A stretch of 64,000 nt of DNA from Zanthoxylum bungeanum (lineage: Eukaryota; Streptophyta; Magnoliopsida; Sapindales; Rutaceae), in assembly GCA_019454045.1 (NCBI GenBank), contig SKCR01025340.1:248001-312000 (forward strand). The letters run 5' to 3'. The notes below the pieces were generated by a model. It saw nothing but the letters and a program-made list of their open reading frames with translations. It did no database searches and was not told the origin of the DNA. Below, one piece after another: positions 11,095-64,000 of the stretch; position 1 is the first letter of the stretch; each line of letters starts with the position of its first letter. The position numbers and the translations under genes are program-made.

Positions 11095-11447
11095 TGTAAC
11101 ATCCCCTCTCGGAGATACTACCAGTAAGGAATAGGCTGACCTATCCCCCTTAGCCTCTGAATTTCTGACTGTGATCATCATTACTAATCGTATCTCAACA
11201 CAAACTCATACATGGGACCATTGCCCAACTCAACAAAATAATAAACATTTTAATACTCTTAACTGTGTTTTCAACAATACTTATATTTTACAACTTTGAT
11301 CACGGACACTTTTGGCACATTACAGTGACTTATACAATACTAATATACAACATGCAACTTTATATTTGACATTCTGAACCCCAGCACTCGACCAGGTGGA
11401 CTCAACACCCTAGTGATTGTAATCAGTATCCATCCTCTCGAGCTCGT
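11095..11447 (-). repeat. Chromovirus 3' LTR, distal part
   Basis: Begins TGTAACATCCC and ends in CTCGAGCTCGT where the Athila-like element is inserted. The uninterrupted version of this junction (CTCGAGCTCGTCCTCCG) is visible in the second LTR copy at about 38965-38985. That establishes the pre-insertion sequence. Confidence 0.8.
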
Positions 11448-13519
11448 TGACCGGTGCAAACACACGCGTATAACGCAAGCGCACGTATCGTTCAAGTAGT
11501 ATAAAAATATCGATCCCACGAGGACTTAATTCTTATTGTTATTAATTATTGAATCTATTTATTTACAAATATCTAATTAAATAGAGAAGAGAATGATTGT
11601 TTGATTGATTGAATGTGGTTTTGCACAATAAATAAATAAATAAAAAGACAAAAGAAAATACTAAGGAAAATAACAAAAGACACAAAGATCTAGGGTTGTA
11701 ATTTCTTTTAATATCATTTTAAAGATGAAGTGGTTATCTTACAGTTGGGTAATATATTGATTTATTAACCTGGAACACTAAATTATGTAAAAGCCTCTTC
11801 CGATGGTCAACTACAAATATCCAGTATAACTCAATTGAACCATATGTCTATGTCGACCAAATTACCTGGATTCATTAAGATTAAGTTCCAATTATGGCTA
11901 CCCCCGCCCGACAGGTATATTCCTATCCTGTAAGGAAATCTATTAAAGGGTTATCTATCCTCAAGGAAGATCGTGGGCTATTGAGTCTAAGGCTGAAACC
12001 TAAAATCCCTATGTCTAGTTCATTTTAGATTTACCAGATCAATTTTATTAATGGCCAATTAATGAAAAAGCATTAAGATTAAGACTCAATAAATAAATCT
12101 TTATATTACTCAAACTATAATTTAACCCCTTATAAACCGGTGATATTAAAAGTCATCACAACCCTAGATAAATAATTTAGTTACAACACATAATTAGGGC
12201 TAGTAAAAACTTGAAAATAAAAGACATAAAGTAAAAATGCGGTAAAGTAAATACTAAAAGTAAATTACAATAAAATAAAATGCTAAGGTAAAAGGAATTA
12301 CTTTTACTACTACTAATTTAGATATCTCCCATAATATAATATATAAACTTGTGATAACATTACCAACCAGCCATATAGGCGGTAACCTGATTAAGTCAAA
12401 TTAAGTCCAACCGGCCATTAAGGCGGTAAAAAATTTGTCCATGAACCTGCCATATAGGCTGTAAGAAAGTTTAATTACCAACCGACCAATCTGGCGGTAT
12501 CCTTGATTAGTCAGGTTAAAACCAGATTAAAATGAATTACAACCGACCATATAGCGGTATCATTTTTAAGTCAATATTTTAATAGTGAATATATTATATT
12601 TAAGGGAGATTAATCTAAATAGCAATAGTAAAAGAATTATCTTCACCCTAGTGTTGGGGAAGTTACCTCATCATTACTGAAAAGTAAAAACTGAAAAATT
12701 AAAGAAAAAAAAAAACTACTGTGCGTAAAAGTAAATTGCGGAAAGTAAAAACTGAAAAGTAAAGAAAAGAAAGTGCGAAACTGAAAAGTAATTACTGAAA
12801 ACTAAAAATAAACAAACTAGATACAATCTTCTTATTTATTCATTAAGAATTCAAAGAAGAAAGTATGAATTTTACAAATGAAATGGCTTGGTATTTATAG
12901 GCAAAATTTTGCACCATCAAATCATCAATCAATTTCTCCACCAAATCCATTAATAATTTCTCCACTAATTACTCCACCAAATCCATAATTTTTCCACTAA
13001 TTTCTTATCTTGTTTGGTGGTGATTTGATAATTTTTTTTAATTATTTATTAATTAATATTTTGCTTTGAAAATGATTGATAATGACTTTTAATAATTACA
13101 CTCCACACACTCTGGATGGTTCATCCATTTCGGTCATGAAATCATCAGAATTTGAAAATATGTTCTCTTTCAAAGTTGTAGATCTTTGAGTCTTCTTTAA
13201 TCTGGAACTTGAATCAGCTCAATCCGATATCTGAGTAAACAGTTATGCCCAAATACGACAGATGCGCAAAACTGGAATTTCCAAAACTGCACTTCGTCAA
13301 AAACGCCCTTTCAAGTTTCCAATCTCCAAAATTAATATATCAAGTCCAATAATTGCCCTTATTTGATCCACATTTCGTCCTAAATGATTTCATTGAGTCC
13401 CGATATTATTTTATCTGCAAAATAAAATAAAACATATCAAAACGTTCATCAAACCCGAGAAACTAAACAAAATATTAAGTAAAAGGGGCGGTAAATATTG
13501 ATATATTTTCCGCTCATCA
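11448..13519 (-). repeat. 3' LTR of Athila-like element 1
   Basis: About 2,072 bp. On the minus strand it starts TGATGAGCGGAAA and ends CACCGGTCA. A TATAAATAC box lies at 12891-12899 (inverted). Downstream of it, 12360-12565, are five or six degenerate repeats around GCCATATAGGCGGTAA. Matches 19197-21260. Confidence 0.93.
12360..12565 (-). repeat. Degenerate tandem repeats around GCCATATAGGCGGTAA
   Basis: Units such as CCAACCAGCCATATAGGCGGTAA, CCGGCCATTAAGGCGG and CCGACCAATCTGGCGGT recur every 35-60 bases. Equivalent blocks lie at about 20107-20312, 29385-29608 and, inverted, 49614-49805. They sit after the TATA box, so probably in the transcribed part of the LTR. Each unit can fold as a small GCC/GGC hairpin. 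Confidence 0.7.
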
Positions 13520-13536
13520 CACCCCCAAACCTAACA
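13520..13536 (-). other. Polypurine tract, Athila-like element 1
   Basis: Read on the minus strand it is TGTTAGGTTTGGGGGTG, directly before the 3' LTR. The same tract is at 24639-24655 in element 2. Confidence 0.88.
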
Positions 13537-14818
13537 TTTTGCTAGTCCTCGAGCAAAACAACAAAAAAATTAAAATTAAACTAAGCCACTTTCGTAGGGA
13601 TCACGGTTGCATTTAGCATATGCAACAAGCCTTTAACCCCTAGGTGTCCCTAGTGGACGAGTTATAGTCTCGTGAGGGCTTACAGCAACGATACCCACAA
13701 ACGTTTTACAAAAGTAAAAAGATAATAAAACTAATGCACACAAAAGCAAAAAGACAAGAGAAAAGAGAATAAAGAAGTTAGTGACTAATCAGGTGAAACT
13801 TCTACTTCAAGTCAATAGTTGTTTTGCTTCATTCTAAATTACAGAATAAGTAAATTCTCCGATTTTTACCATTCTTCATATACACAGCCAACAAAATATT
13901 AAACATCTCATTTTTTCCCACAACAGTCATAAGTGCAGTTGATAAGAGAGTAATATTTTTGTCCTAAAGTTCTATCAGATTTAACACCTTTTGGTAGCAA
14001 TGGAATAATTTTTCTCATTTTTCTGATTTTTTTCTTTGAATTTTTTTTTTATACAAATCTTCCGTCTATGTAGCGAGTGTTGGGTCGGTGACTCCCAAAC
14101 CAGTTGGCTTTAGGGCACCAGGTGTTAAGACACCCCTACGGACTTAATTACCCAGACTTCAGATATATATATTTTTTGCAGCATCTTTGATCCATGTAGC
14201 GAGCTTTGGGCCAGTGACTCCCAAACCAGTTGGCTTTAGGGCACTAGGTGTTAAAACACCCTTACAGACTAAAACTCGGATCTCAGACGTTTTTTTTTTT
14301 TTTTTTTTTTACTCCATTGCTTTTTAAGATGCTTCCTCCAATTAAACTAGAGCACTGGATATTACAAAATTTTCAATTTTAGCTCATGTCCGTATGTTAC
14401 TATATATGTTGATAATACCTGTCAACTGAGCATATGAAGATCCATTTAAGTCAATTTTATGGAGAATTTACAAATTAAATAATTCAAAAAGAAATAAACA
14501 AAAATTAACTTGTTTCGAATTAGGTTTAAGATACGTCTCAGGAGTGGAAACTCCTTACTCGGCTATCTCTTACCAATTTCACTTTTTTAGTCAAATTAAA
14601 AACACAAATATTTTTGTAATTTTTTGAAAATTTTTCAATTTTTTTGTATTTTTCGAAAAATTTTGGACTAAAAATAAAAATAACACACAAACTAAAAATA
14701 AGGTACTGATCAACTAATTCCCTCCCCCAAACCTAAATGAGACATTGTCCCCAATGTCTTAAACAGTAGAAGAAGAGTTTAGAAGATAATACCTGGTTAG
14801 CTGAAATTCTACAAGAAA
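13537..14818 (-). other. Noncoding tail between LOG-type gene and 3' LTR, element 1
   Basis: No coding sequence seen. It contains a near-exact duplicated segment of about 90 bases, at 14066-14160 and 14194-14282, sharing the phrase CCCAAACCAGTTGGCTTTAG. The copies are separated by T-rich spacer; a run of about 23 T lies at 14287-14309. The same arrangement recurs at 24656-26019 in element 2. A stretch at about 14525-14585 resembles the end of the four-cysteine gene upstream, so it may be a partial duplicate of it. Confidence 0.6.
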
Positions 14819-15474
14819 TTAAAGGTTAAGATCCAGATTAACACGACGCCTCTTACCACGATCGTCTTCGAACCAATTTATCTTTGAAAGGATAGGGTCA
14901 ACTTGTGGTTCATAGGCTATGAGTTGGTCTATTAGATCTGGAGCAGTTCTGGCAGTGAAGATGAGTTCTTTCAAAGATTTTGACACGAACCCATTTCTCC
15001 GAGCATCATCAAGAAACACACAAAAAGAAATCATAAAATCCATCAACGTTAAGCAGTCCAAGCGGTTTCTGGTGTATGTTCAGGTTCGCCCAAGATAGAA
15101 CTATAAAAATTTCCTCCAATGTGCCCAAGCCACCTGGCAAACCAATAAAAGCATCAGCACGGTTAATCTTTTCTACCAATCGTTCAGACATACCTGGCAC
15201 GATCAGTTCCTCTCGTTTGATGATCCAATAAGATTTGCCTCTGCCAAGGGTTTTGGGATGATTCCTAAAACATGACTGCCTCCTTCCTGTACAGCCTTTG
15301 AAACGATCCCCATAAGTCTAAGATTTCCTCCGCCATATATTAAGTGCATATTCCTTACAGCTAAGACTCGACCCAATTCCTGTGCGCTGCTTCTATGTAT
15401 TGTGGCTTAGTTCCAACACTAGTACCGCAAAATACACAGATATTTTCAACTTGTCTTCTTGAAGTGGCTTCCAT
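14819..15474 (-). pseudogene. LOG-type cytokinin phosphoribohydrolase pseudogene
   Basis: Aligned by eye with the intact copy at 26020-26673 along its whole length. Starts MEATSRR at 15474 and keeps the [11 protein letters not shown] active-site segment and the GKRRRVNLDLNL tail. Three small indels break it: an extra 2 bases near 15387, a missing base near 15213 and an extra base near 15029. There are no introns, whereas plant LOG genes usually have several. Substitutions relative to the other copy keep many residues, so it may have decayed after its own insertion or during earlier retrotransposition. Confidence 0.88.
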
Positions 15475-15788
15475 TTTTATGTATTTCTTTCTCAACTCTG
15501 GATGCCTTCAAAAGTGCAATGACGGGCTTGAATTTATAGTACCTGAAAAGGGTGAGTAAAAATAGCACAAGTATCTTCCAGAGGACGATTCGTAGCGAAA
15601 TAATATCGTGATAGTCAAAAAGGTCTGGATCCTGTCGGAGAAAGAAAACAACAAAACAAATTACAATATTAGAAAAGACAAAGAGATATAATATTTACAA
15701 GAAAAGTAACGGCTTGATTGACGTCTATGCGTCAGGAACAAGTTCCTATCCAATTTTCTTATAAATTGGCAAACAGGGTCGTTTTGAG
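15475..15788 (-). promoter_or_regulatory. Leader upstream of LOG pseudogene with TATA-like and acceptor-like sites
   Basis: On the minus strand there is a pyrimidine-rich TTTCTTTCTCCGACAG-type 3' splice site at about 15632. About 60 bases before the ATG lies a TATAAATT at 15531-15538. Both surroundings are conserved at 26674-26850 in element 2. The gene could be expressed from a spliced retrotransposon transcript or from a captured promoter; the sequence does not decide between these. Confidence 0.4.
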
Positions 15789-16267
15789 TCAGATTCTGAG
15801 ACTTAACAATTGTCTTTCTTTTTGGAATTGTGTATGTAATTTGCGAATGGCTATGTGAACATATCCACTGGGATACGTCTCAAGAGTTAAAGATATTTCA
15901 TCTAAAGACTCCTTACTCAAGCCATCCCTAATGAATTTAATTTTGTCTTCGCGATTATCAGACACCATTCCTAAAGAACGACAACGAGTGTTGCAATTAA
16001 ATCGTGCACATTTAAAACAAACACCCATTTGCTTAGCTCTACGTTTCTTTGCATAGGTGCTTCTTCCAAAACCAGGCAGATGTGAAATAAAATAGTCAGA
16101 AGACTCACCTGCCAATCGGACTCATGCTTCAATTACCCAACGAATATCATTAGGAACCATGGATTGTCAGTAACCTCATCCGTTCCAAGCGAGCTTTGTA
16201 AACTTTCATCAGAGATTTTGAGGGAGAGAAGGAAATTGTTGCGAAGATTTGCGAGAGCATCTTCCAT
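15789..16267 (-). pseudogene. Broken four-cysteine, arginine-rich protein gene (carlavirus CRP-like)
   Basis: Two overlapping pieces: an N-terminal part starting MEDALANLRNN at 16267, and a C-terminal part of about 108 codons ending at 15789. They are separated by a frame change and a stop near 16110-16150, so no intact product is encoded. The second part has GRSTYAKKRRAK, then a C-x2-C-x4-C-x3-C cluster, then a FIRDG segment. Order and spacing resemble the C-terminal half of the cysteine-rich nucleic-acid-binding proteins of carlaviruses, a family with nuclear-localising basic patches that often acts against host RNA silencing. The resemblance is from motif memory only and could be convergent. 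An acceptor-like TTTTTACAG lies just before it at about 16284. Confidence 0.5.
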
Positions 16268-16323
16268 TTTGAAATGACTAATCCTGTAAAAATTAACACA
16301 CAAAAATAAAACACACCAAATCA

Positions 16324-16383
16324 TAATATATACACAAATTGCATGGGTTGCCTCCCTGCTAGCGCTAAGTTTAAAGTCGTCAG
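16324..16383 (-). other. Post-integrase spacer of Athila-type elements
   Basis: Contains GCGCTAGCAGGGAGGCAACCC (inverted), a phrase commonly found just after the integrase gene of plant Ty3/gypsy elements. It is repeated at about 27130-27180 in element 2 and, in altered form, near 38700-38740. Confidence 0.6.
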
Positions 16384-16737
16384 CTAGACGTGACTTTTCG
16401 AACGTTTAGGCTGGATCTGAAAGTGTGACAGTTTCTTTTTGACGCTCCAACGGTTCTCCCCAGTAGTGCTTGACACGCTTGTTTTTAACCTGAAAGTTTT
16501 GTTAGTGTCAGGATCATGTATCTCAACGGCTCTATTTGGTAAAACTTTGGTGATCACAAATGGACCTGACAACCGTGATTTTGGCATCCATGGGAAGAAT
16601 TTCACCATTGATTTGTTTAACAGTACCTTCTGCCCTGGTTCCAGTTGCATGCGCACTAACTTCTCATCATGTCTCTTCTTGCCCTTTTCTTTGTATAATT
16701 TGGCATCCTCAAAAGGCTGATTATGAAATTCCTCCAA
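16384..16737 (-). pseudogene. Integrase C-terminal end of Athila-like element 1
   Basis: About 117 codons with DAKLYKEKGKKRHDEKL, PGQKVLLNKS and RLSGPFVITKV. This is the typical C-terminal region of plant Ty3/gypsy integrase after the catalytic core, here ending at its own stop. It follows the protease remnant with only about 75 bases between. Reverse transcriptase, RNase H and the integrase core, normally about 3 kb, are therefore missing. Confidence 0.9.
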
Positions 16738-16813
16738 TTCGTTGAGTTGGTGGAACTTTTTCTCTTATGTTGCTTGTAGTGCAAGAATTGGCTCCTTCAG
16801 TACAAAAGACGCT

Positions 16814-17738
16814 TTATCTTAGGCTCCACAGGCAATTGACATGTTTTAAGTTGTCAGTAGAACTTTGTCTTTCATCAGAGTTCTGAATGGTACTGTGTAT
16901 CACATCGAGTCTGAAACATTCCTCCTTCTTTTCATCATCTGGGAAATTCATGGCCTTGAAAACATTGAATGTTACTTCTTGGTCCTGTACCCTCATGGTT
17001 AATTCTCCTTTTTGTACATCAATAATGGTTCGACCTGTAGCCAAGAATGGTCTCCCAAGGATGATTGGTACGTCTGCGTCTTCCTCCATATCAAGGACAA
17101 TAAATCTGCTGGGAAAATGACTTTGTCAACCTTGACCAGCACATCCTCAACTACGCCTCTCGGAAATACGAGCGTTCTATCAGCAAGTTGCAGTGAGACT
17201 GAAGTTGGCATTGTTTCTCCAATCTGTAATTTCCTGAAAATAGAGAAAGGCATCAAGTTTAACACTCGCCACTAAATCACACAAAGCCTTACCAAAGTTA
17301 TGTTTCCTATTACGCAAGGAACAGTGAAACTGCCAGGATCTTTCAACTTCGGGGGAAGTTTCCTCTGAATGATGGCACTGCATTCTTCTGTTAATGCTAC
17401 TGTCTCGTAATCTCCCAATCTCCGTTTCGTGAAAGAATATCTTTCATGAATTTGGCATCGGTGGGCATTTGTTCCAACGCTTCTGCAAATGGAATGTTGA
17501 TATGCAGCTTTTTGAAGATCTCCAGGAACCGAGAAAACTTCTTGTCCAATTTGTTCTTCTGAAGACGTTGAGGAAAATGTGGAGGTGGAGTGATCTGTTC
17601 TTTTTCCTTTGCTTCTTTTTCCTCCATCTGTTGCTTTGTTTCTTTTGGAACTTCCTCAATAGTTGTTTTGGCTCCAACATCTTTGTTGATTTCAGTACTG
17701 CTTTTTAACATGATGGCATGACATTGCTCCTTCCCCAT
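16814..17738 (-). pseudogene. Gag-pol linker and aspartic protease remnant
   Basis: Starts with an acidic/lysine linker, then PPPHFPQRLQKNKLDKKF and FLEIFKKLHINIPFAEAL, the conserved linker of plant gypsy polyproteins. Then follow a CDL-x-ASV-like protease segment (the family has CDLGAS), SVSLQLADRT and PIILGRPFLATGRTIIDV, the end of the retropepsin fold. Frame changes near 17260-17390 and 17090 split it into three pieces. It ends where the large pol deletion begins. Confidence 0.9.
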
Positions 17739-18199
17739 GTTCCTTGGATTTGGCTCTGTGTTGCTAGGAAGGGTACCTGGCGGTCTCTAAATCTGAGCAT
17801 TTGCCAGTTGTCCAATTTGATTATCCAGTGATTTGATAGAGGCTGAATGGCTTTGAAATATAGTATCATATCTTACTGCTTGAGAGTCGTGTTTTGCTTC
17901 CATCTTTTTCAAGTAGGTCAACACTTCTGTTATTCCTAATTCATTTGCCTGCTCCTGGCCTTGTTCTGTTGTTGGGATTCAGGTGGTGGATAGTTCTGCT
18001 GTTGGCCTGAATTGTTGCTCCATGATAAATTAGGATGATTCCTCCACCCTGGGTTGTAGGTGTTGGAATATGGATTGTTCCCCGGTTTTGAAATTGTTGA
18101 CATAATTCACCGTCTCTTCATGTTGGTTTGGTTCTGGTGCTCCTCCATATGGTGAACTTGTGGATCCAGCGATGTTCACAACTTGCGTGCTAAGTTTTT
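17739..18199 (-). pseudogene. Gag C-terminal region remnant
   Basis: Frame-shifted remains of the gag tail. On the minus strand one reads a YNPGWRNHPN-like segment at about 18010-18060 and an IKSLDNQIGQLANAQI-like coiled segment at about 17795-17840, both usual for plant gypsy gag. A zinc-knuckle cluster is not clear. The related segment in element 2 is open and makes up the 384-codon protein at 27206-28360. Confidence 0.7.
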
Positions 18200-19065
18200 C
18201 TAGACATTGCATATCTGATCCAACCTGGTATTCACTGCTGTGTTTGCTCCAACTTCATAAATTCCTGCAATTCTTTGGATCATGCACCTTTCTGTTGGCC
18301 ACAAGGAATTGTTGTTGGCCATTTCTTCGATTAGGTCCCAGGCTTGATCTTCTCCTTTTGCCATCAAGGCTCCTCCAGCAGCAGCATCGATTGTGGTTCT
18401 CATTATTCCAGAAAGTCCATTGTAGAAGGTCTGAACATGTAGCCACTTTGGAATCTCATGGTGATGACATTTCCGGAGTAATTCTTTGTACCTTTCCCAA
18501 GCTTCGCAAAGGGATTCTGAATCTTGTTGTACAAAGGATGTGATGTCATTCCTCAATTTTCCGGTTCTGGCTGGTGAAAGTACTTTGCAACAAATTTGGT
18601 GGCTAAAGTGTTCCAAGTTGTGATAGAACCTGCTGGTAGTGAATGTAGCCAAGCTTTAGCTCTGTCCTTCAGGGAATATGGAAAAACTCGCAGTCTCATT
18701 GCTTCTTCTGATGCTCTGTTGTAGTTAAAAGTGCCGCAAACTTTCAGGAAGTTGCTGATGTGGGAATTAGGATCTTCAGTTGCATTCCCCCCGAACTGAA
18801 CTGACTGCTGAATCATCTGAATGTATGTTTTGATGTCACACGCATTTGCTGGTAAGGGAGGAAGTACAATACAGGAAATGAGTCTGTCAACCACCAGAAT
18901 GGTTCTGTCTCGAATGGGAATTGGTGGTGCAACGTTCAAAGGTTCAGGTTCCATGTTGACTAAAGCTTCTTGGCCTTCTCGCCTTTCCCTTCTCAACTGT
19001 CTGATGGTTCTTTCAATTTCTAATGGGTCAAGCGGTCGGAGTTCAAAGCTTCTGGTTCGTCTCAT
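18200..19065 (-). pseudogene. Gag capsid domain (Retrotrans_gag), frameshifted
   Basis: The natural ATG appears to be at 19065 (MRRTRSFELRPLDP), just after a TTTCAG acceptor-like string. The capsid domain follows: HISNFLKVCGTF, AMRLRVFPYSLKDRAKAWL, then after a frame change near 18565-18590 SFVQQDSESLCEAWERYKEL and VQTFYNGL. This is a standard plant Ty3/gypsy capsid. Gag would normally package the element RNA; this copy cannot make it intact. Confidence 0.92.
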
Positions 19066-19172
19066 GAAGTTTCTGAGAACCTGAAACACAAGAAAACAAA
19101 AACAATAAGTAAAAATAAATTAGATACAAGTAATGTATCTAACCTCTAAACTAATAGTAAAAGATAAATAAG

Positions 19173-19190
19173 TCCCCGGCAACGGCGCCA
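19173..19190 (-). other. Primer binding site, Asp-tRNA type
   Basis: Minus strand TGGCGCCGTTGCCGGGGA, six bases inside the 5' LTR. This is the site typical of Athila-type elements. Confidence 0.92.
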
Positions 19191-19196
19191 AAAACT

Positions 19197-21260
19197 TGAC
19201 CGGTGCAAACACACGCGTATAACGCAAGCGCACGTATCGTTCAAGTAGTAAAAAATATCGATCCCACGAGGACTTAATTCTTATTGTTATTAATTATTGA
19301 ATCTATTTATTTACAAATATCTAATTAAATAGAGAAGAGAATGATTGTTTGATTGATTGAATGTGGTTTTGCACAATAAATAAATAAATAAAAAGACAAA
19401 AGAAAATACTAAGGAAAATAACAAAAGACACAAAGATCTAGGGTTGTAATTTCTTTTTTAATCATTTTAAAGATGAAGTGGTTATCTTACAGTTGGGTAA
19501 TATATTGATTTATTAACCTGGAACACTAAATTATGAAAAGCCTCTTCCGATGGTCAACTACAAATATCCAGTATAACTCAATTGAACCATATGTCTATGT
19601 CGACCAAATTACCTGGATTCATTAAGATTAAGTTCAATTATGGCTACCCCCCCCCGACAGGTATATTCCTATCCTGTAAGGAAATCTATTAAAGGGTTAT
19701 CTATCCTCAAGGAAGATCGTGGGCTATTGAGTCTAAGGCTGAAACCTAAAATCCCTATGTCTAGTTCATTTTAGATTTACCAGATCAATTTTATTAATGG
19801 CCAATAATGAAAAAGCATTAAGATTAAGACTCAATAAATAAATCTTTATATTACTCAAACTATAATTTAACCCCTTATAAACCGGTGATATTAAAAGTCA
19901 TCACAACCCTAGATAAATAATTTAGTTACAACACATAACTAGGGCTAGTAAAAACTTGAAAATAAAAGACATAAAGTAAAATGCGGTAAAGTAAATACTA
20001 AAAGTAAATTACAATAAAATAAAAAATGCTAAGGTAAAAGGAATTACTTTTACTACTACTATTTAGATATCTCCCATAATATAATATATAAACTTGTGAT
20101 AACATTACCAACCAGCCATATAGGCGGTAACCTGATTAAGTCAAATTAAGTCCAACCGGCCATTAAGGCGGTAAAAAGATTTGTCCATGAACCTGCCATA
20201 TAGGCGGTAAGAAAGTTTAATTACCAACCGACCAATCTGGCGGTATCCTTGATTAGTCAGGTTAAAACCAGATTAAAATGAATTACCAACCGACCAATAT
20301 AGCGGTATCATTTTTAAGTCAATATTTTAAATAGTGAATATATTATATTTAAGGGAGATTAATCTAAATAGCAATAGTAAAAGAATTACCTTTCACCCTA
20401 GTTGGGGAAGTTACCTCATCATTACTGAAAAGTAAAAACTGAAAAATTAAAGAAAAAAAAGTACTGTGCGTAAAAGTAAATTGCGGAAAGTAAAAACTGA
20501 AAAGTAAAGAAAAAAGTGCGAAACTGAAAATTAATTACTGAAAACTAAAAATAAACAAACTAGATACAATCTTCTTATTTATTCATTAAGAATTTCAAAG
20601 AAGAAAGTATGAATTTTACAAATGAAATGGCTTGGTATTTATAGGCAAAATTTTGCCCCACCAATCATCAATCAATTTCTCCACCAAATCCATAATAATT
20701 CTCCACTAATTACTCCACCAAATACATAATTGCTCCACTAATTTCTTATCTGTTTTTGGTGGTGATTTGATAATTGTTTTTAATTATTTATTAATTAATA
20801 TTTGCTTTGAAAATGATTGATAATGACTTTTAATAATTACACTCCACACACTTCTGGATGTTTCGTCCATTTCGGTCATGAAATCATCCGAATTTGAAAA
20901 TATGTTCTCTTTCAAGGTTGTAGATCTTTGAGTCTTCTTTAATCTGGAACTTGAATCAGCTCAATCCGATATCTGAGTAAACAGTTATGCCCAAAATACG
21001 ACAGATGCGCAAAACTGGAATTTCCAAAACTGCACTTCGTCAAAAACGCCCTTTCAAGTTTCCAATCTCCAAAATTAATATATCAAGTCCAATAATTGCC
21101 CTTATTTGATCCACATTTCGTCCTAAATGATTTCATTGAGTCCCGATATTATTTTATCTGCAAAATAAAATAAAACATATCAAAACGTTCATCAAACCCG
21201 AGAAACTAAACAAAATATTAAGTAAAAGGGGCGGTAAATATGATATATTTCCGCTCATCA
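19197..21260 (-). repeat. 5' LTR of Athila-like element 1
   Basis: About 2,064 bp, matching 11448-13519 with only scattered single-base and small indel differences. TATA box (inverted) at 20635-20643. Followed by the CTCGT duplication at 21261-21265. Confidence 0.93.
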
Positions 21261-21265
21261 CTCGT

Positions 21266-23775
21266 CCTCCGGGTATACGTGAAAAATAAAAATACTGGGA
21301 GTGGGGGTTTAATTGTTTGAACGACTTAGTGAGTGGACAATAAAAAAACAGAAACTGAAATATTTTATGAAAATTCAATTTTTTCTGAATTAAAATCATC
21401 TTGAGGAAAGCTGATATTTTCTGAATACTCTTTCGTAGCTGAAAACCAATCTCTTTCTGTGAAACGTTTCTAGAAAATCTTTCTATCTGTAAAAGTCTTT
21501 CATAAAACCATTCCTTCTGAGAGCCTTCAATAAACTACTTCTTTTGAAACTATTTGTTAAGACCATCATTCTGAGAATATGTAGAAAACCTGACTTATGG
21601 GGTGTTACCTATCGCCGTCCTCATACGCCTAAACTAGTGGTCTTGGGGCGTTACGTATCACCGTACCCTAAGCCACTTAACTAGAGCCAGGCATTCAAAT
21701 CCATACCATTGGGGCGTTATGTATCGCCGTCCCCCAATGCTTACCACCAACCTATCCCTGAATCTAGGGTCTAGGGGGTGTTACATATCGCCGTCCCCAT
21801 AACCCTAAATCTAGTGGTCTTGCGGAGTTACATATCACCGTCCCCCAAGCCACCGAACTAGAGCCAGATGTGCTAATCAATGCTATTATCTTGACCCTGA
21901 ATCTAGGGTCTAGGGGCGTGACATATCGCCACCCCTTAGCCCTGCAATTAGGATCTATGGGCGTTACGTATCACCGTCCCCATAGCACTGCAACTAGGAT
22001 CTAGGGGCGTTATGTATCGCTGTCCCCCTAGTCATGAACTACGTATGCACGCGTAATCTGTGTCCATCAATTCCATATTCGTCAATTCCCATAAGTCACA
22101 TATGAGGTGGGTTTTTCCCTCATGCCTCCAAAAATCACAAAATCATGCTTTTCAAATCAAAAACTTTCTGAAACATGCTCATTCATAATATAACTGTAAA
22201 TCCACTTCGCTAACGTCCTATTGTGTTTAAAAAGTAAGTCTTAAATCAAATGCAATTAAGTAAAATCAATTTGAAAAAGAAAGATCCACTAATTGATTTA
22301 GAATCTGGCTGGCACTAATTCACTTCATCGAAGAAGGATTGTGGTTCCTTATGATAATATATATTGATAAACTTGATTAGAATATAAGTCGTGGAATATG
22401 TTTCGGAACTAGACTAAGTTTCTCAATTCAACTAGCTTGATCACTTCATGACGTATTATGACATAATGTGTGTATATTTGTCTATATAAAACTCCTAGGG
22501 TGGCCTCTAGCATCCTAAGATGAAATTAGAATGGCTAAATCTGATTCTGAGAAAAGATCACGCATTGCGACACCAGATGTTTTGAGTTACGACTCATACT
22601 TATCCAAACCTGAGTAAGAGAGCCTCTGCTTGTTGCGCATCGTGACACTGTGTGTTCCACGTCGTGACTCTCATAATAACATACCCAAGGTAGTGAGCCT
22701 CTGCTTATTGTATATCTCGACGCTGACTGTTGAGCATCGCGAAGCTCACACGATCAGACTCTAGGCAGAGAGTACTTTCTTGTTCAGCGTTAAGATACTA
22801 GCATAATTTTAGGGCCATACATCAACTCTTCCAATAACAAAGCTCAATGAAATCCCCACCATCATACTCACACATTTACATAGACAATTCTCTAAACTTC
22901 ACATCAATATACAAGAGCCAAATTCAATCCCTAACCTCTTATATACCATTTGAGAAAGGCATGCACATTAGGGACTTAGAAGTTAAAGCACTAAATCGAA
23001 TTCATCGCATAATACACATCATTCCAAACACACTTCATCATTAATTTCGATCATAGCAACAATTACTCATCTTCTAAAAATAGTGACATATCCGGCCACC
23101 CCTCCAACACAAGGGAAAAATTGGGCATTTAGACATAAGGCTTAATTCCATGCTAATTACTACCATGACACCCTCCAAAATACATGCTAACAACATTATC
23201 AATGTCAATTGAGCAAATCCAAGCACTGGGGTATGCAAGGTGCGAAATTAGGTTTTATTCTCTTTGCTCAAAATTGAAAAATGAGAAGATAAAAGAGAAA
23301 AGAGAGCTTACCATGCTTGGAATGAAGCTTGAATCTTCCACTAAGCGTGAGGGATGAAATCTTTTTAACAAGCAAGAATGGAGTAAAGAGAATCTTCTCC
23401 ATTTCTTTCTTCTTCACGTTTTTTCTATTGAGAGAGATGAGCGAATAATGCTCTATTTATAGGAGAAGGTGGCTGATTTTTGTAATGAAGTGGATGGCCA
23501 AGATTGTGTCACATCACCCCAAATCTAGGCCATTATTTCCACTGTAACAGCCATGAAAATCATATTTTTTTACCTATTGCTAATTCAAGTTTGGAAAAAT
23601 ATCTAACGTAGCAGTTTTAGGTATCAGTCTTAGCTTTCTGACGATATACAATTCATAAATATCGGAGATTATATGAAAATATTATGGCCTAAATACTAAG
23701 GGCTATTTGGAGTAGTACATAAGATAAATACACCATCTATAGCATAATAGTCATTGGAATTTTCGGGGTGTTATA
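21266..23775 (-). repeat. Chromovirus 3' LTR, main part
   Basis: Continues the LTR interrupted at 11447. Recognisable blocks: the hairpin array at 21596-22031; tandem repeats at about 22600-22790 with CTCTGCTTGTTGCGC and CATCGTGACACTG-type units; and an AT-rich end finishing TTTCGGGGTGTTATA. It parallels 33421-34777 (end part), and 38770-39905 with 51761-52092 (start and middle parts). Confidence 0.82.
21596..22031. repeat. Array of eight hairpins with a shared loop and variable stems
   Basis: Units have the form stem - CGTTAYGTATCRCCGT - complementary stem. The stems change between units: ATTGGGG/CCCCAAT, CTATGGG/CCCATAG, CTAGGGG/CCCCTAG, CTTGGGG/CCCTAAG, TATGGGG/CCTCATA. The loop is nearly constant and the two stem arms change together in most units. 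A second, shorter array with the same loop (TTATGTCTCGCCGT) is at about 39304-39570. Confidence 0.75.
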
Positions 23776-24318: not shown

Positions 24319-24638
24319 CGCAAGATAGCATGATCGGCGCATTTAGCTGGCGGCGAACGTTACCAAATTTTCTGATTGGTCCACGGCGCATGTTAGCAAG
24401 TCCGGCGCATTCTGGGCGTCGCGACGCGCAAGGCTTCAGCGTCGCGACGCTGAAATGACGATTTTGCCATTTTTGTCCATTTTTTCCTGTTTTGCTCCAA
24501 TTCACCTCCAGAATGTCCTGAAACTTTATTTATCTACAAAATAACACAAAACACATCAAAATATTCACAAAACTCAAGTAACTATACAAAATATTAGGTT
24601 AAATGAGTGGGAAATAGTGATAGATTTACAACTCATTA
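24319..24638 (-). repeat. Truncated 3' LTR of Athila-like element 2
   Basis: Matches about 30204-30531, including the GC-rich GTCGCGACGC palindromes, and ends ACTCATTA where the other LTR has ACTCATCA. The rest of this LTR is absent; the junction with degenerate chromovirus sequence is near 24319. Confidence 0.85.
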
Positions 24639-24655
24639 CACCCCCAAACCTAACA
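24639..24655 (-). other. Polypurine tract, Athila-like element 2
   Basis: Inverted TGTTAGGTTTGGGGGTG, identical to 13520-13536. Confidence 0.88.
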
Positions 24656-25307
24656 TTTTGCTAGTCCTCGAGCAAAACATAGAATAAAATAACATAATTT
24701 AAATTTAACTAAGCCACTTTCGTAGGGATCACGGTTGCATTTAGTGTATGCAACAAGCCTTTAAACCCATAGGTGTCCCTAGTGGACGAGTTGTAGTTTC
24801 GTGAGGGCTTACAGCAACGATACCCACAAACGTTTTTACAAAAGTAAAAAGTTAGTTAAAACTAATGCACACAAAAGCAAAAAGACAAGAGAAAAGAGAA
24901 GTTAGTGACTAATCAAGTGAAACTTCTACTCCAAGTTACTAGTTGTTTTGTTTCATTCTAAATTACCGAATAAGTAAATTCTCCGATTATTTTTACTATT
25001 ATTTATATACACAGCTAACAAAATATTAAACAGCTCATTTTTTCCCACAACAGTCATAAGTGCAGTTGATAAGAGAGTAATATTTTTGTCCTAAAGTTCT
25101 ATCAGATTTCACACCTTGTTGTAGCAATAGAATAATTTATTTCTCATTATTCTGATTTTTTTCTTTGCTTTTTCTGAATTTTGACTTTTTATTTATATAC
25201 AATACCTTCTGTCTATGTAGCGAGCTTTGGGTCGGTGGGTCCCAAACCAGTTGGCTTTAGGGTACCAGATGTTAAGACATCCCTACGGACTTAATTACCC
25301 AGACTTC

Positions 25308-25361
<54 letters not shown>

Positions 25362-26019
25362 TTTGTAGCACCTTCGATCCATGTAGCGAGCTTTGGGCCA
25401 GTGACTCCCAAACCAGTTGGTTTTAGGGCACTAGGTGTTAAAACACCCTTACGGACTTAATAACCCGGATCTTAGATACTTTATTTTTGTACATCAGAAT
25501 ATTTTTTTTTATTCCATTACTATTTATAGATGCTTCCTCCAATTAAACTAGAGCACGAAATATTACAAGCTTTTCAATTACAGCTCATGTCTGTATGTTA
25601 CTATGCATGTTGATAATACCTGCCAACTGAGCATATGAAGATCCATTTTAGTCAGTATTATGGAGAATTCACAAATTAAATAATTTAAAAGGAAATAAAC
25701 AAAAATTAACTTGTTTCGAAATAGGTTTGAGATACGTCTCAGGAGTGGAAATTCCTTACTCGGCTATCTTTTACCAATTTCACTCTTTTAGTCAAAATAA
25801 AAACACAAAAACGCAAAATATTTTTGTAATTTTTGAAAATTTTCCAATTTTTTTGTATTTTTCGAAAAATTTTGGACTAAAAATAAAAACACAATACAAA
25901 CAAGTACTATTAACTATACCTCACCCCCAAAACTAAATGAGACATTGTCTCCAATGTCGTAAACAGTGGAAGAAGAGTTTAGAAGATAGTACCTGATTAG
26001 TTGAAATTCTACAGGAAAA
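24656..26019 (-). other. Noncoding tail between LOG and 3' LTR, element 2
   Basis: Parallels 13537-14818. It has the same duplicated block, at about 25213-25310 and 25378-25470, here separated by an (AT)n tract (25311-25352) and a T run. The conserved AT-rich segment at about 25800-25880 and the relic-like stretch near 25725-25785 are also present. No coding sequence recognised. Confidence 0.6.
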
Positions 26020-26673
26020 TTAAAGGTTAAGATCCAGATTTATTCGACGCTTCTTACCACGATCATCATCGGACCATTTTATCTTTGAAATGATAGGGTC
26101 AACTTGTGGTTCATATGCTAAGAGTTGGTCAATTAGATCCGGAGCAGTTCTGGCAGTAAAGAGGAGTTCTTTCATAGGTTTTGACACGAACCCATTTCTC
26201 CGAGCATCATCAAGAAACACACAAAGAAAATCGTAAAACCCATCAACGTTGTACAGCCCAATTGGTTTCTGGTGTATGTTTAGGTTCGCCCAAGATACTA
26301 CAATAAAAATTTCCTCCAATGTACCCAAGCCACCTGGCAAAGCAATAAAAGCATCAGAACGGTTAATCATTTCCACCAGTCGTTCAGACATACCTGGCAC
26401 GATTAATTCCTCTCCGTTTGATGGTTCAATAAGATTTGCCTCTGCCAAGGGTTTTGGGATGATTCCCAAAACGTGACTACCTTCTTCCTGTGCAGCCTTT
26501 GAAATGATCCCCATAAGTCCAAGATTTCCTCCGCCATATATTAAGTGCATATTCCTTGCTGCTAAGACTCGACCCAATTCCTGTGCTGCTTCTATGTGTT
26601 GTGGTTTAGTACCGACAGTACTACCGCAAAACACACAAATATTTTCAACTCGTCTTCTTGAAGTGGCTTCCAT
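26020..26673 (-). CDS. LOG: LOG family cytokinin riboside 5'-monophosphate phosphoribohydrolase, retrotransposon-borne
   Basis: 217 codons, ATG to stop, no introns. LOG enzymes release active free-base cytokinin from its riboside 5'-monophosphate in the cytosol or nucleus. Visible features: CVFCGS at residues 13-18, LIYGGGNLGLMG at 44-55, a conserved Arg at 98 (MSER), [11 protein letters not shown] at 111-121 with the catalytic-type Glu, and NIHQKPIGL at 132-140. Length is usual for the family. It looks closer to the divergent LOG-like (TIGR00730) plant proteins than to the main Arabidopsis LOG set, from memory. The C-terminus GKKRRINLDLNL joins a basic patch to an LxLxL motif. It lies between a gag-like gene and the 3' LTR of an Athila-like element, on the element's sense strand. 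Its frame is open while the sister copy at 14819-15474 is broken. Expression is unproven. Confidence 0.93.
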   Translation of the reverse strand: MEATSRRRVENICVFCGSTVGTKPQHIEAAQELGRVLAARNMHLIYGGGNLGLMGIISKAAQEEGSHVLGIIPKPLAEANLIEPSNGEELIVPGMSERLVEMINRSDAFIALPGGLGTLEEIFIVVSWANLNIHQKPIGLYNVDGFYDFLCVFLDDARRNGFVSKPMKELLFTARTAPDLIDQLLAYEPQVDPIISKIKWSDDDRGKKRRINLDLNL

Positions 26674-26899
26674 TTTTTTTTATGTATTTCTTTCTCAACT
26701 ATGGATGCCTTCAAAAGTGCAATGACGGGCTGAATTTATAGTACCTGAAAAAGGGTGAGTAATAATAACACTAATATCTTCCAAAGGACAATTGTTAGCT
26801 AAACAACAAAAGAAATCGTGAAAGGTCAAAAAGTCTGGATCCTATCTACGAAAATAAAGATAATTACAACAGAAAAGCGAATCAAAGAAATAATTAAGG
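26674..26899 (-). promoter_or_regulatory. Leader upstream of LOG with TATA-like box
   Basis: Conserved with 15475-15720 of element 1. TATAAATT (inverted) lies at 26733-26740, about 60 bases before the ATG, with GTACTATAAATTCA context shared by both copies. An acceptor-like TAG followed by GATCCAGAC is near 26842. The region could be the 5' untranslated part of the captured host transcript or a small internal promoter. Confidence 0.4.
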
Positions 26900-27205: not shown

Positions 27206-28360
27206 TTAAGGAGGTTTCAGCGTCGTTTTGGATGTCCGATTAAAGACAATCTCGTGTGCGTTGCTTTTGAAGGGTCTCTTCCAACGGTAAAGTGGCAAAA
27301 AGAATTTTATCTCATTCAGTGCTTGTGCCACCTTTTTTATCTTTGTTGCTCCATTGGTTCCTGAAAAGAAAGAAATAAAATTAGGAGGTCTCGTATGGTG
27401 ATTGACTTGGAATGGAAGTTCCATTCTTTCAAGTTTCTGGGTGATTTCTTTGATTTGTACTCCCCGATACAACGATGTTTTTCCTGAATGTTCTGGATCT
27501 TTAATTTGGTCTGACAATTGCTCCTTCATTTTCTCTGTTTCTTGCTCCATCTGAGGATGTAAAGATGTTTCTGACATTAGGTCTTCATCCTCTGATACGA
27601 GTAAAATGATTGGCTCAAGTAGATCTTCTTCAAACATTTGTGCAATGGAATCTCCAAGATCTTCATTTTGAGGATACAGAATTTCATCCTCAATTATTGA
27701 TGCAGTTGGTACAAACAAATCAGCTTCATCCTCGTCAGAATCTGAATAATAGAAATCAAATCGAGACTTTGCCGGTTCGGGCTCCTGAACTGATACCTCT
27801 GGTTGTTGATACTGCTCAGCCTCCTCCTCTATTGAAGTGTCATTATGAAATGATTGGTACTCAAAGGCTTCATCAGTGTCATCAGAAAATGGTATTTGAG
27901 GTATGTAGCTCTGGTTTTCTATTAATTGTCTGATCTGATCTGTCATTCTCTGTATGGATTCTGCGTTACTCGGAATTTGTGCATCAAATTGAGCTCCATG
28001 TTCTTTGAACATGTGAATCAATTGATCTTCCTCGGATGGTTCTGGTTCTTGATAAGGATCGAAGGAATATGGTGGATAAGATGGAAAATGTGATGATTCT
28101 TCGTACCATGAATGATTTTGATAGCTCTGCCACCCTGGATTGTAGTTGTACTCGCAATAATCTCTTGGGTGGTTACCATTACATATGTCACATCTCTCTA
28201 TTGCGTTCTGATGAGCAAATGTAGTATTGCTTGGTTCTGGCATCCAGTGATAATTGTTGGGCTGGACAACAGGCCTCAGAAAACATGACTGTTGCTCCCA
28301 GATGTGGGGTGTCTCTTTTTGTAAGGTTCGTAATCTCTCAATCTCCCAGTAGTGTTCCAT
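27206..28360 (-). CDS. Gag-tail-like acidic protein with CCHC-like motif, 384 codons
   Basis: Opens at ATG 28360, just after a TTTTGTTTTCAG acceptor-like string. Residues 57-69 hold CDICNGNHPRDYC (C-x2-C-x3-H-x4-C), followed by NYNPGWQSYQNHSW, both typical of the C-terminal part of plant gypsy gag. The middle is rich in Glu/Asp (for example EDEDLMSE) and Gln. The capsid domain seen in element 1 (18200-19065) is absent, so it is not a normal gag. It is the only other open gene of element 2 and could bind element RNA or be a non-functional relic. The C-terminal 80 residues match nothing I recognise. Confidence 0.7.
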   Translation of the reverse strand: MEHYWEIERLRTLQKETPHIWEQQSCFLRPVVQPNNYHWMPEPSNTTFAHQNAIERCDICNGNHPRDYCEYNYNPGWQSYQNHSWYEESSHFPSYPPYSFDPYQEPEPSEEDQLIHMFKEHGAQFDAQIPSNAESIQRMTDQIRQLIENQSYIPQIPFSDDTDEAFEYQSFHNDTSIEEEAEQYQQPEVSVQEPEPAKSRFDFYYSDSDEDEADLFVPTASIIEDEILYPQNEDLGDSIAQMFEEDLLEPIILLVSEDEDLMSETSLHPQMEQETEKMKEQLSDQIKDPEHSGKTSLYRGVQIKEITQKLERMELPFQVNHHTRPPNFISFFSGTNGATKIKKVAQALNEIKFFLPLYRWKRPFKSNAHEIVFNRTSKTTLKPP

Positions 28361-28474: not shown

Positions 28475-28492
28475 TCCCCGGCAACGGCGCCA
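28475..28492 (-). other. Primer binding site, Asp-tRNA type, element 2
   Basis: Same TGGCGCCGTTGCCGGGGA site as element 1, six bases inside the 5' LTR. Confidence 0.92.
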
Positions 28493-28498
28493 AAAACA

Positions 28499-30531
28499 TG
28501 ACCGGCGTAAACACACACGTATAACGCAAGCGCACGTATCGTTCAAGTAGTATAAAAATATTGATCCCACGAGGACTTAATTCCTACTATTGTTATTAAT
28601 TATTGAATCTATTTATTTACAAATATCTAATTAGATGGAGAAGAGAATGATTGTTTGATTGGTTGAATGTGGTTTTGCACAATAAGTAAATAAATAAAAA
28701 GATAAAAGAAAATACTAAGGAAAATAACAAAAGACACAAAGATCTAGGGTTGTGAATCATTCTAATATCATTTAAAAGATGAAGTGATTATTTTATGTTT
28801 GTGTAATAAATCGGTTTACTAACCTGGAACACTAAATTATGCAAAAGCCTCTGTCGATGGTCAGACGCAAATACCCAGTTTAACCCAATTGAACCATATG
28901 TCTATGTCAACCAAATTATCTGGATTCATTAAGTGTAAGTTCCAATTATGGCTACCCCCGCCCGACAGGTATATTCCTATCCTGTAAGGAAATCTATTAA
29001 AGGGTTATCTATCCTCAAGGAAGATCGTGGGCTATTAAGTCTAAGGCTGAAACCTAAAATCCCTATGCCTAGTTCATTTTGGATTTACCACATCAATCTT
29101 ATTGGTGATCAGACAACAAGAAGCATTAAGCTTAATACTTAATAAGTAAACTTTTAAATTACCCAAACTATAAAATAATCCCTTATAAACCGGTGATATT
29201 ATAATTCATCACAACCCTAGATAACTAACACATAACTAGGGCTAGTAAAAACTTAAAAGTAAAAGACATAAAATAAAAGTACTGAAAAGTAAATTACAAT
29301 AAAATGCTAAGGTAAAAGGAATTAATTCTACTACTACTTATTTAGATATCTCCCATAAAATAATATATAAACTTGTGATTATTACCAACCAGGCATATAG
29401 GCGGTAACCTGATTAAGTCAATTTAAGTTAAACCAGCCATAAAGGCAGAACCAAAGTAAACCAGCCATAGAGGCGGAACCAAAATAAACCAGCCATAAAG
29501 GCGGAACCAAAATAAAATTACCAACCGACCAATCTGGCGATATCCTTTCTTAGTCAGGTTTAACCAGTTTAAATTAAATAGCCAACCGACCAATATAGCG
29601 GTATTCCTTTTTAAGTCAAATTTTAAATAGTAAATATATTATTTTTAAGGGAGATTAATCTAAATAGCAATAGTAAAAGAATTACCTTTTACTCAAGCAG
29701 GGGGAAGTTACCTCATCATGGTGAATAGTAAAACTGTAAAAAGTAAAAGGTAAAAATAAATTACTATTACTATTTAAAAGTAAAATTACTATTACTATTA
29801 CAAAACGTAATTAAAATTATTTACAAAAACAATAAAAAACTAAAAATTAAAGATTCTAGAGAGAGAAACTATCTCTTTATAAAGAATAGAAGAGAGAGGA
29901 AGGTACACCAAATTATAAAATCTCGAGCTTAATTTATAGGCGCGGATAAGGGTCCAGCGTCGTGACGCCAAGGGCTTCAGTGACACGTGTCACGAGCTGA
30001 TTTGTCGGCTCAGATTCTTATCCGATGACGTGGCACTGTTCATGACGTCATTGCTTACGTCACGCTGATGATGTGGCACTGTTCATGACGTCATTGATGA
30101 TGTCACGCTGATGTGTGGAGGGCGATTGTCGGCACCGTTAGATCGCGACACGTGTCACTAGCGTAAATTAGCAACTCTGTTGTGATGGCGACACGTGGCA
30201 GGCGCAAGATAGCTTGATCGGCGCATTTTAGCAGGCGGCGCACGTTAGCAAATTTTCTGATTGGTCCATGTGTCCACGGCGCACGTTAGCAAGTCCGGCA
30301 CATTCTGGGCGTCGCGACGCGCAAGGCTTCAGCGTCGCGACGTTGAAATGACGATTTTGCCCTTTTTGTCCATTTTTTCCTGTTTTGCTCCAATTCACCT
30401 CCAGAATGTCCTGAAACTTTATTTATCTACAAAATAACACAAAACACATCAAAATATTCACAAAACTCAAGTAACTATACAAAATATTAGGTTAAATGAG
30501 TGGGAAATAGTGATAGATTTACCACTCATCA
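28499..30531 (-). repeat. 5' LTR of Athila-like element 2
   Basis: About 2,033 bp, TGATGAGTGG...GCCGGTCA on the minus strand. The part after the TATA box is like element 1, including the GCCATATAGGCGG repeats (29385-29608). The upstream U3 part is GC-rich and unlike element 1, but matches the solo LTR at 48687-50690. Confidence 0.92.
29931..30200 (-). promoter_or_regulatory. LTR promoter with TATA box and clustered bZIP-type sites
   Basis: TATAAATT (inverted) at 29931-29938. Upstream on the minus strand are a TGACACGTGTCA palindrome at 29981-29992, TGACGTCA palindromes at 30043-30050 and 30086-30093, GACACGTGTC at 30147-30156 and GACACGTGG at 30190-30198. TGACG and ACGTG cores are the usual sites of plant bZIP (TGA and ABF/GBF type) factors. 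The same set occurs in the solo LTR near 49020-49180. Hormone or stress control is an inference. Confidence 0.6.
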
Positions 30532-32479
30532 CCTAGTCAGAGTATTATCGAGATTGGACATCGATGAATACGTAAAAGACTAGTATTACAATTGTGCGTA
30601 TTGTGGGAGCACAACAGCATAGTTCTCATATGTTTGGGTATAGGTTACTCATGCAAGTGTAATAGGAGGTTGTGTTTCACCGATGGTACGGGAAACAGCT
30701 TCGCTCTGGATAGACCCCCTCGGAATTCCATTTGTAGTATGACTACGTGTCTATGGAAGTCCGAAATCAGGGTAGGTGTATTTGGTCTTAACCTGAGACT
30801 TGCACCGCTAATGCATACGACAATCAATATACTTTGGTTGAGGTCGTCCAGGGCTTTAACCGGTTAATGTGTACGCCAATTCTGGGTATATCGAGAATCG
30901 TAGTGTGTTGGGTGTGATGTCAAGACGGAAGTGTCACTCAAGTCATATGGAGTTGATGATCTTGCAGACAAAACTGGTTCTCTATAAAGGTTGAAACCGT
31001 CGGGATAATATGACTTGGTCATGATTATCTGATTATAAAGAGACTAGTTGCTCGTTATCCGATATATGCATCGTACGGGGCAGACATTGTATCAGCCTCA
31101 GGCCTTGCATGTGATCATCTGATACAGGACAGAAATATGCAATACTACGGTATACTACGCTTGATATAGATCCTTATTCCTGTAAGGATATTTCGGAGAA
31201 TTGGGTAGGCATGGCGCTTTGCTAGAGGCCAACCTTATCTTATAATTCGGTATAAACGTAGTACGAGGTACTTACGTATTCAGATAGTCCGAAGACCGAA
31301 TTTACTACCAACATATCCGGGGATATCATGGGTCGCTTCCCAAGATTCACCGATGACGTATGACTCGCATTTTTAATTAATCTGAGATTAATTAGATGAG
31401 AGAGAAAATTAATCTGGGATTAATTGCGGAGATATTTTATCTGGGATAAAATATCAATTAAAGAGATATAACGATTAATTTGGAATTAATCGAGAAATTA
31501 ATATATTCGATATATTAAACGAAATTGGATTTCGACGCGGAATTAAAATTAGATTTTAATTCGGGCGAACGAATTAATTAGGGATAAAATATCAATTAAA
31601 GAGATATAACTATTAATTTGTAATTAATCGAGAAATTAATATATTCGATATATTAACGAAATTGGATTTCGACGCGGAATTAAAATTAGATTTTAATTCG
31701 GGCAAACGAATTAATTTAGAATTAATTTGTCATCGACGTGAATAGTAATTATGCTAGGCATGATTATTTAATTAAATTAGATTTAATCGCGACGCAACAG
31801 AAAGTTCGTTAATAGTTGCGGCAAATCAAATCAAGCGTCAAATCGCTAGTCGCATCTAACGTCACATCATTCGTCAATCAAGTGATGGATGTCTTTCACT
31901 TTGAGTGATTGACGCCAGTCACTATTCACTGATTGATGGAAGTAGATGTGACTTGATGTGTGTGGTTGGCATTTATGGATTGGTTTTTGGAGGGAAAAAT
32001 TTGGTATTGGTTTTGGAAATTATATTACCAATTTTTTGCTAACAAAAATCATAACACACAAATCTCTCTCTCTCCTCCATTTCCTCTCCATATCACGCCC
32101 TTGGGGCTACTATTTTCTTCTGGTTCTTGGCAGTTCACTGCCGTGGAAGTGAAGGAAAAGGGAAGCAAAGTGCTTGGTTTTTGCGGCAAAAAAAAATCAA
32201 TAGAGCTAGCACACCGAGAGACATGCGGAAGTGATAGGGAAGTTCAGCCATGAGCCGGGAACCATTCGACGAAGCTTGGAGCTTGACGAAGGAGACCAAA
32301 AGGCCGAACCAGTGAGCTTGAGCTGCTGTTTTTGCGTGACCAGTGCAGTGGGCAGTGAAAATTTGTTTTGCCTAAAGCGTCGCTCAACCGCTCGATGTAA
32401 GTGTTCCGCGACTTTCTCGATTGTTATTCGCACTTGTTTCATGTTGTTATTCGATCCTATGGACCTAGAAACTCCAACA
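30532..32479 (+). repeat. Copia LTR fragment, 5' end missing
   Basis: Starts inside the copia LTR (CCTAGTCAGAGTATTATCGAG, as at 61978-61998) and runs to CTCCAACA at 32479. Hairpin-array region at about 31370-31790, with one block of about 110 bases (CAATTAAAGAGATATAAC to TTTAATTCGGGC) tandemly duplicated at 31450-31700. The left part was lost at the junction with Athila-like element 2. Confidence 0.88.
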
Positions 32480-63781: not shown

Positions 63782-63782
63782 A

Positions 63783-63794
63783 TGGTATCAGAGC
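63783..63794 (+). other. Primer binding site, tRNA-iMet type
   Basis: Perfect TGGTATCAGAGC, one base after the LTR. Confidence 0.93.
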
Positions 63795-64000
63795 GAGTAA
63801 AAGCATGAAATACGAATAGGGCTTAAAATTTGGGTAAAATGTGTTTGAGCATGAATTAATGAAATTGGATGATTTAGTATGTTTATAACATGTTCAATTT
63901 AAGATTGATTGGATCATCCAAATGGATTTCCCCAAAATCTTGAGCTTGGCCGAGAGTTATTCCTTATGTAGTCTTGGTGATTTTTGTTTCGTTGATCATT
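63795..64000 (+). other. Copia leader, cut by window end
   Basis: Parallels 2406-2640 and 32493-32710. No gene. Confidence 0.7.

Follow-up and report, generated by a model that had tools for sequence, protein, structure and literature searches.

Organization of the locus

The window analysed here, a 64,000-nucleotide stretch of the Zanthoxylum bungeanum genome, contains two LTR retrotransposons on the minus strand, referred to below as elements A and B, each of which carries a LOG gene in its 3' part. The features of element A, listed from its 5' end, are:

28499–30531, minus strand: 5' LTR of A, 2033 bp with TG..CA ends, matching both the 3' LTR fragment at 24319–24638 and the solo LTR at 48687–50690
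28475–28492, minus strand: primer site, 18 nt
27206–28360, minus strand: gag-like open reading frame (ORF), 384 aa, with a CX2CX3HX4C zinc-knuckle-like stretch and a YNPGW motif
26674–26745, minus strand: LOG leader, from a putative 3' splice site (CCCTTTTTCAG) to the LOG start codon
26020–26673, minus strand: LOG ORF, 217 aa, intact from ATG to stop
24639–24650, minus strand: polypurine tract, identical in B
24319–24638, minus strand: 3' LTR of A, first ~320 bp only, with other repeat sequence beyond

Because element A also lies on the minus strand, its LOG ORF is in sense within the element and, as no pol was recognised, sits between the gag-like ORF and the 3' LTR. The first-pass annotation had described a LOG gene on the sense strand between a gag-like gene and the polypurine tract of an element with primer site and LTR, and this placement holds, with the qualifications that the 3' LTR is truncated and that Pfam yields no match for the gag-like ORF. 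Owing to this truncation, A has no testable target duplication. The YNPGW motif of the gag-like ORF is typical of Athila gag. The best match to this ORF elsewhere in the window is a stretch of 25 residues in the gag region of B (48% identity, E 0.015), and its database relatives number six among 1480 candidates, all on contigs of 1.0–2.1 kb. No reverse transcriptase was found in A among eight of the nine interior minus-strand ORFs of at least 55 aa, which were scanned against Pfam and of which only LOG matched. The 3' LTR fragment and the 5' LTR of A diverge by a K2P distance of 0.032, measured over 321 bases only.

Two smaller repeats were also observed in A. A 126-nt direct repeat (25187–25312 and 25353–25478; 79% identical) lies in the non-coding sequence between LOG and the polypurine tract, with parts that match B too, and palindromes (GCGTCGCGACGC) occur in the LTRs at 24417–24450 and 30309–30342.

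Element B is the more complete of the two at its ends, and is composed as follows:

11448–21260, minus strand: element B, both ends complete, with target duplication CTCGT at 11443–11447 and 21261–21265
19197–21260, minus strand: 5' LTR
18200–19119, minus strand: gag in two frames (PF03732, E 2e-7 and 4.9e-10)
16384–17272, minus strand: pol remains, resembling a protease and an integrase C-terminus in stretches identified only by visual inspection, with no convincing Pfam match
15740–16267, minus strand: carlavirus-type nucleic-acid-binding-protein-like ORF, frameshifted, directly upstream of LOG; longest open piece 15789–16121
14819–15474, minus strand: LOG copy with three small frame-shifting indels, 90.6% identical in DNA to the LOG of A
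11448–13519, minus strand: 3' LTR, which by substitutions is 98.6% identical to its 5' counterpart

The hallmarks of an LTR retrotransposon (paired LTRs, TG..CA ends and a target duplication) are complete in B. Its two LTRs differ by a K2P distance of 0.014 and 24 indel events, and B is probably a younger insertion than A. Reverse transcriptase was not found among the 22 of 25 interior minus-strand ORFs of at least 55 aa that were scanned against Pfam, the other three being pieces of LOG; a set of 20 ORFs scanned for pol domains matched no Pfam family up to E 0.01, and part of the B gag had no match in the PDB up to E 0.1. The features that point to the Athila lineage are a primer site complementary to tRNA-Asp and, in B, a gag of the Ty3/Gypsy type (PF03732), whereas neither copy has a recognised reverse transcriptase. 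The primer site was identified by comparison with the tRNA-Asp sequence; no tRNA genes were found in the window.

The two LOG copies lie about 11 kb apart, and the alignment of A with B is continuous between the LOG leader and the polypurine tract. Since LOG is found at the same place and with the same flanks in a second, complete element, it belongs to the element, as had been proposed from the first copy alone. The first-pass annotation would have been refuted had the gene been absent from all other element copies; this refutation fails, as B has the gene too, in frameshifted form. LOG is, in short, the cargo of at least two elements.

A third member of the LTR family is present without an interior:

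48687–50690, plus strand: solo LTR belonging to the family of A (94.6% identity by substitutions), flanked by the target duplication ATCGC

This solo LTR sits inside another repeat, of which a second copy at ~40.67 kb is free of the insertion. Elsewhere in the window, a repeat of up to ~2 kb occurs in many direct and inverted copies (369–2392, 6593–8624, 30532–31579, 40384–41869, 52501–54515 and 61769–63916). The first two of these copies are 94.6% identical, and the repeats are perhaps nested LTRs of another family. An imperfect array of short repeats (21585–22043) is built of ~44-nt units that are 64–84% alike, with motifs like GGGGCGTTACGTATCGCCGTCCCC.

Identity of the LOG gene

The ORF of element A carries what identifies a type-I LOG, namely a PF03641 match above the curated cut-off, a PGGxGTxEE motif and, in the modelled structure, the LOG fold. 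PF03641 matches across its whole profile (E 1.3e-35; 122.8 bits against a cut-off of 27), and Arabidopsis At2g37210 (PDB 2a33) aligns without gaps over residues 4–202 (E 5.7e-57). YGGGNLGLMG occupies residues 46–55 and PGGLGTLEE residues 113–121. These results bear out the earlier description of a complete 217-codon LOG frame with both motifs, and a chance open frame at 26020–26673 is excluded. An AlphaFold model, for which 13 aligned sequences served as input (mean pLDDT 80.8), has 2a33 as its best PDB match (TM 0.94 by target length, rmsd 1.4), and plant and bacterial LOG structures rank first among its structural matches. The closest solved structures are plant LOG3 and LOG8 and bacterial type-I LOGs, at 36–48% identity; the nucleosidase PpnN and carrier proteins of the molybdenum cofactor are also among the structural matches. 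At2g37210 is LOG3 and At5g11950 is LOG8. These two proteins share with the LOG of A both the fold and a PGGxGTxEE-type motif, at 48% and 42–43% identity in structural alignment, and differ from it in being encoded by cellular genes rather than by an element.

The ungapped alignment to LOG3 also supports the earlier claim that the gene is intronless, and on this evidence the LOG ORF of A is free of introns. Peanut LOG genes have 3–7 exons, mostly seven exons and six introns (PMC13257298).

A database search scored the 7998 candidates with the most words in common; 7824 of them matched, and 120 were listed. Among these 120, the best full-length relatives are 88% identical to the LOG of A and lie on short contigs, and the plant relatives that carry an organism name are 50–57% identical to it. 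Of the 89 listed relatives that are 210–260 aa long, 83 keep PGGxGTxEE. A tree of 98 rows, rooted at the midpoint, was made from A, two Arabidopsis proteins and the 95 listed hits of 195–260 aa (25 listed hits were left out for length). In this tree a supported clade of 21 rows unites A with 20 database proteins, and the Populus rows lie outside it. The LOG alignment also found three loci in viral_contigs, at 35–41% identity.

A conserved leader upstream of LOG

In both A and B, the LOG ATG is preceded, at a distance of ~70 nt, by a T-rich run that terminates in CAG. Between this acceptor-like site and the ATG, 65 of 66 aligned bases are identical in the two elements, with four more gapped; directly upstream of the leader, the figure is 126 of 188. 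Acceptor-like sites are also found before the gag-like ORF of A and before the second extra ORF of B. About 4–9.4% of positions score as high by a simple in-house score, and because equal scores are so common at other positions, the sites are suggestive only. The site before LOG is a candidate splice site for a subgenomic RNA; alternatively, the leader contains a TATAAA-like sequence that could act as a promoter.

Signature of selection between the two LOG copies

The LOG copies of A and B differ at 58 bases and 28 residues. Over the 215 of 217 codons that are free of indels, the Nei-Gojobori method counts 29 synonymous and 29 nonsynonymous changes (dS 0.226, dN 0.061). The resulting dN/dS is 0.27 (bootstrap 95% 0.15–0.47), well below 1, for a comparison of only two copies at the DNA level; the first-pass annotation had called for just such an estimate. 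Under neutrality, 40–42 residue changes would be expected. As few as 28 occurred in none of 5000 simulations with a mutation spectrum taken from the 3' flank, in none of 5000 with a spectrum from the LTRs, and in one of 4000 in each of two sets with CpG/CHG-dependent rates. Flank and LTR spectra and context-dependent rates were used because methylated elements mutate unevenly. The 215 aligned codons contain no premature stop, against at least one in 89.7–95.4% of neutral simulations. LOG has therefore probably been under selection while in the element, as far as can be read from the divergence between these two sequences, in which the purifying signal resides.

Some observations weigh on the other side. 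The non-coding 3' flank differs between A and B at 104 of 1281 aligned bases (8.1%), which is below the synonymous divergence, so that either the flank is under constraint or mutation is faster at coding sites. Between A and B, LTR identity is 84% across the alignable 1.3–1.4 kb and 73% in a forced end-to-end alignment, and for this reason element families may have exchanged the LOG module.

It had further been suggested that LOG was kept open in A while the surrounding viral genes were lost. The intact frame of A in itself proves little, because the chance of its survival without selection is about 0.01–0.23, depending on the indel rate assumed (with an LTR divergence of 0.032 over 321 bases). 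We have accordingly dropped it as proof of selection.

A carlavirus-type ORF next to LOG in element B

The longest open piece of the second extra ORF of B (15789–16121) matches PF01623 (E 2.4e-7; 31.1 bits against a curated cut-off of 20.9) and PF05515 (E 1.2e-5; 25.9 bits against 23), and shares its zinc-finger stretch with the cysteine-rich nucleic-acid-binding protein of carlaviruses. The version in B differs from the carlavirus protein in being borne by an element and in belonging to a family with clusters of tens to hundreds of members. Among 220 candidates, 219 database relatives were found with E up to 0.001. Of the 120 that were listed, 47 are exactly 182 aa long and 110 keep the four-cysteine pattern; organisms named among them are Xanthoceras, Populus, Rhamnella and Orobanche, and the clusters include one of 566 members, the largest, as well as one of 74 from Populus alba and one of 47 from Xanthoceras. 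In A, no more than 65 nt of a counterpart are left, at 74% identity. A comparison with PHROGs gave nothing better than E 0.036, and the nucleic-acid-binding alignment found no loci in viral_contigs.

A literature search, largely of the main text of open papers, found nothing that ties the carlavirus nucleic-acid-binding domain (PF01623) to LTR elements. The papers found to name PF01623 apparently concern methylglyoxal enzymes, and a flexivirus replicase-like sequence described in cucumber is a different protein from that of the second ORF (PMC3136472).

Discussion

Two Athila-like elements similar to LOGL4 were reportedly described by Steinbauerova et al. in 2011, with LOG in the 3' part of the element, as here. 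In Citrus sinensis and C. clementina, Ty3/Gypsy consensus sequences have likewise been recorded with a YgdH/LONELY GUY domain, and so have those of Populus trichocarpa when the filter was relaxed (PMC9289625). Because LOG-bearing Gypsy elements of Citrus and Populus are thus in print, elements of this kind are already known, and the earlier view of LOG as an unusual cargo is fair, although such a cargo is not new. What is added here is this member of the group, from another host and with two copies whose ends can be described, together with the selection test and the companion carlavirus-type ORF.

In Athila, Calypso and Diaspora elements, too, the LTR is followed within a few bases by a primer site for tRNA-Asp (PMC1142308, PMC6317226), and this primer is given specifically for Diaspora and Calypso (PMC1142308). 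The present copies differ from them in that LOG replaces the env-like or Athila ORF1 gene, and in their want of a recognised reverse transcriptase. Extra ORFs in plant LTR elements have been reviewed or surveyed (PMC7264820, PMC6317226). A host-type enzyme domain is similarly carried by certain Gypsy elements of orchids, although their cargo is an m6A RNA demethylase and not a hormone enzyme (PMC9289625).

We consider it likely that the ORF is a type-I LOG serving as an accessory 3' gene of an Athila-type LTR retrotransposon family, captured from the host and acting through cytokinin. In this scenario, a copy of a spliced plant LOG transcript would have entered the element at a point between pol and the polypurine tract, and the LOG modules of A and B would have diverged afterwards. 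Today A is a copy without recognisable pol and with an intact LOG, and B one with complete ends and a broken LOG. LOG may be translated from the element transcript, perhaps from a subgenomic RNA spliced ~70 nt before the ATG, in a position that could be likened to that of env in retroviruses.

LOG enzymes are cytokinin riboside 5'-monophosphate phosphoribohydrolases. The predicted enzyme would release active cytokinin in any cell where the element is expressed, and this may promote division or a meristem-like state of that cell, from which new insertions can pass to the next generation.

Other explanations must be weighed against this one. Perhaps LOG, once captured, is a passive passenger of no use to the element, its low dN/dS being an accident of having only two copies, of mutation bias or of recombination. 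The broken LOG of B would fit such a history, as would the chance, not a small one, that the frame of A stayed open unaided, and a dS above the flank divergence is a sign of unusual mutation patterns. Neutral simulations, however, two of the four sets context-dependent, almost never gave so few residue changes (0/5000, 0/5000, 1/4000 and 1/4000), and conservation of PGGxGTxEE among the listed relatives argues in the same direction, even though most of these cannot be placed in elements or in host genes. We regard a passenger as unlikely. It is somewhat easier to imagine, but still doubtful, that what is selected in LOG is not its effect on cytokinin but another nucleotide-hydrolase activity, such as the removal of nucleoside monophosphates from the particle or the cell. 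The fold does reach beyond LOG, as the structural matches to PpnN and the molybdenum-cofactor carrier proteins indicate, but the closest solved relatives are LOG3, LOG8 and bacterial type-I LOGs.

That a single intronless host LOG locus was instead hit by unrelated LTRs might be suggested by a window so dense with nested repeats. Two copies sharing the same flanks through to the polypurine tract speak against it, and chance LTRs around one host locus are ruled out by B, with its intact ends, target duplication and LOG in the same place, unless the LOG of B arrived by gene conversion; we consider this origin extremely improbable.

The carlavirus-type ORF is, in our opinion, the more novel part of the finding and merits a study of its own. 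Cysteine-rich nucleic-acid-binding proteins of carlaviruses are RNA-silencing suppressors. It is tempting to speculate, and we do so tentatively, since we think it rather less probable than not, that Athila-type elements of this sort carry, between pol and the 3' LTR, a two-gene accessory module of nucleic-acid-binding protein and LOG, which would jointly counter silencing and push division. If so, such an element would resemble a plant virus or a gall-forming microbe without ever leaving the genome. The many copies of the nucleic-acid-binding family in plants would also imply that RNA viruses have a gene in common with an entire class of endogenous elements, and an ORF found in both raises the question of whether the virus gene came from the elements, or the reverse.

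The selection signal of LOG renders the idea of hormone hijacking directly testable. If the enzyme is made and active, these would be transposable elements that alter a host hormone to their own ends, and every new insertion would spread a growth-promoting gene.
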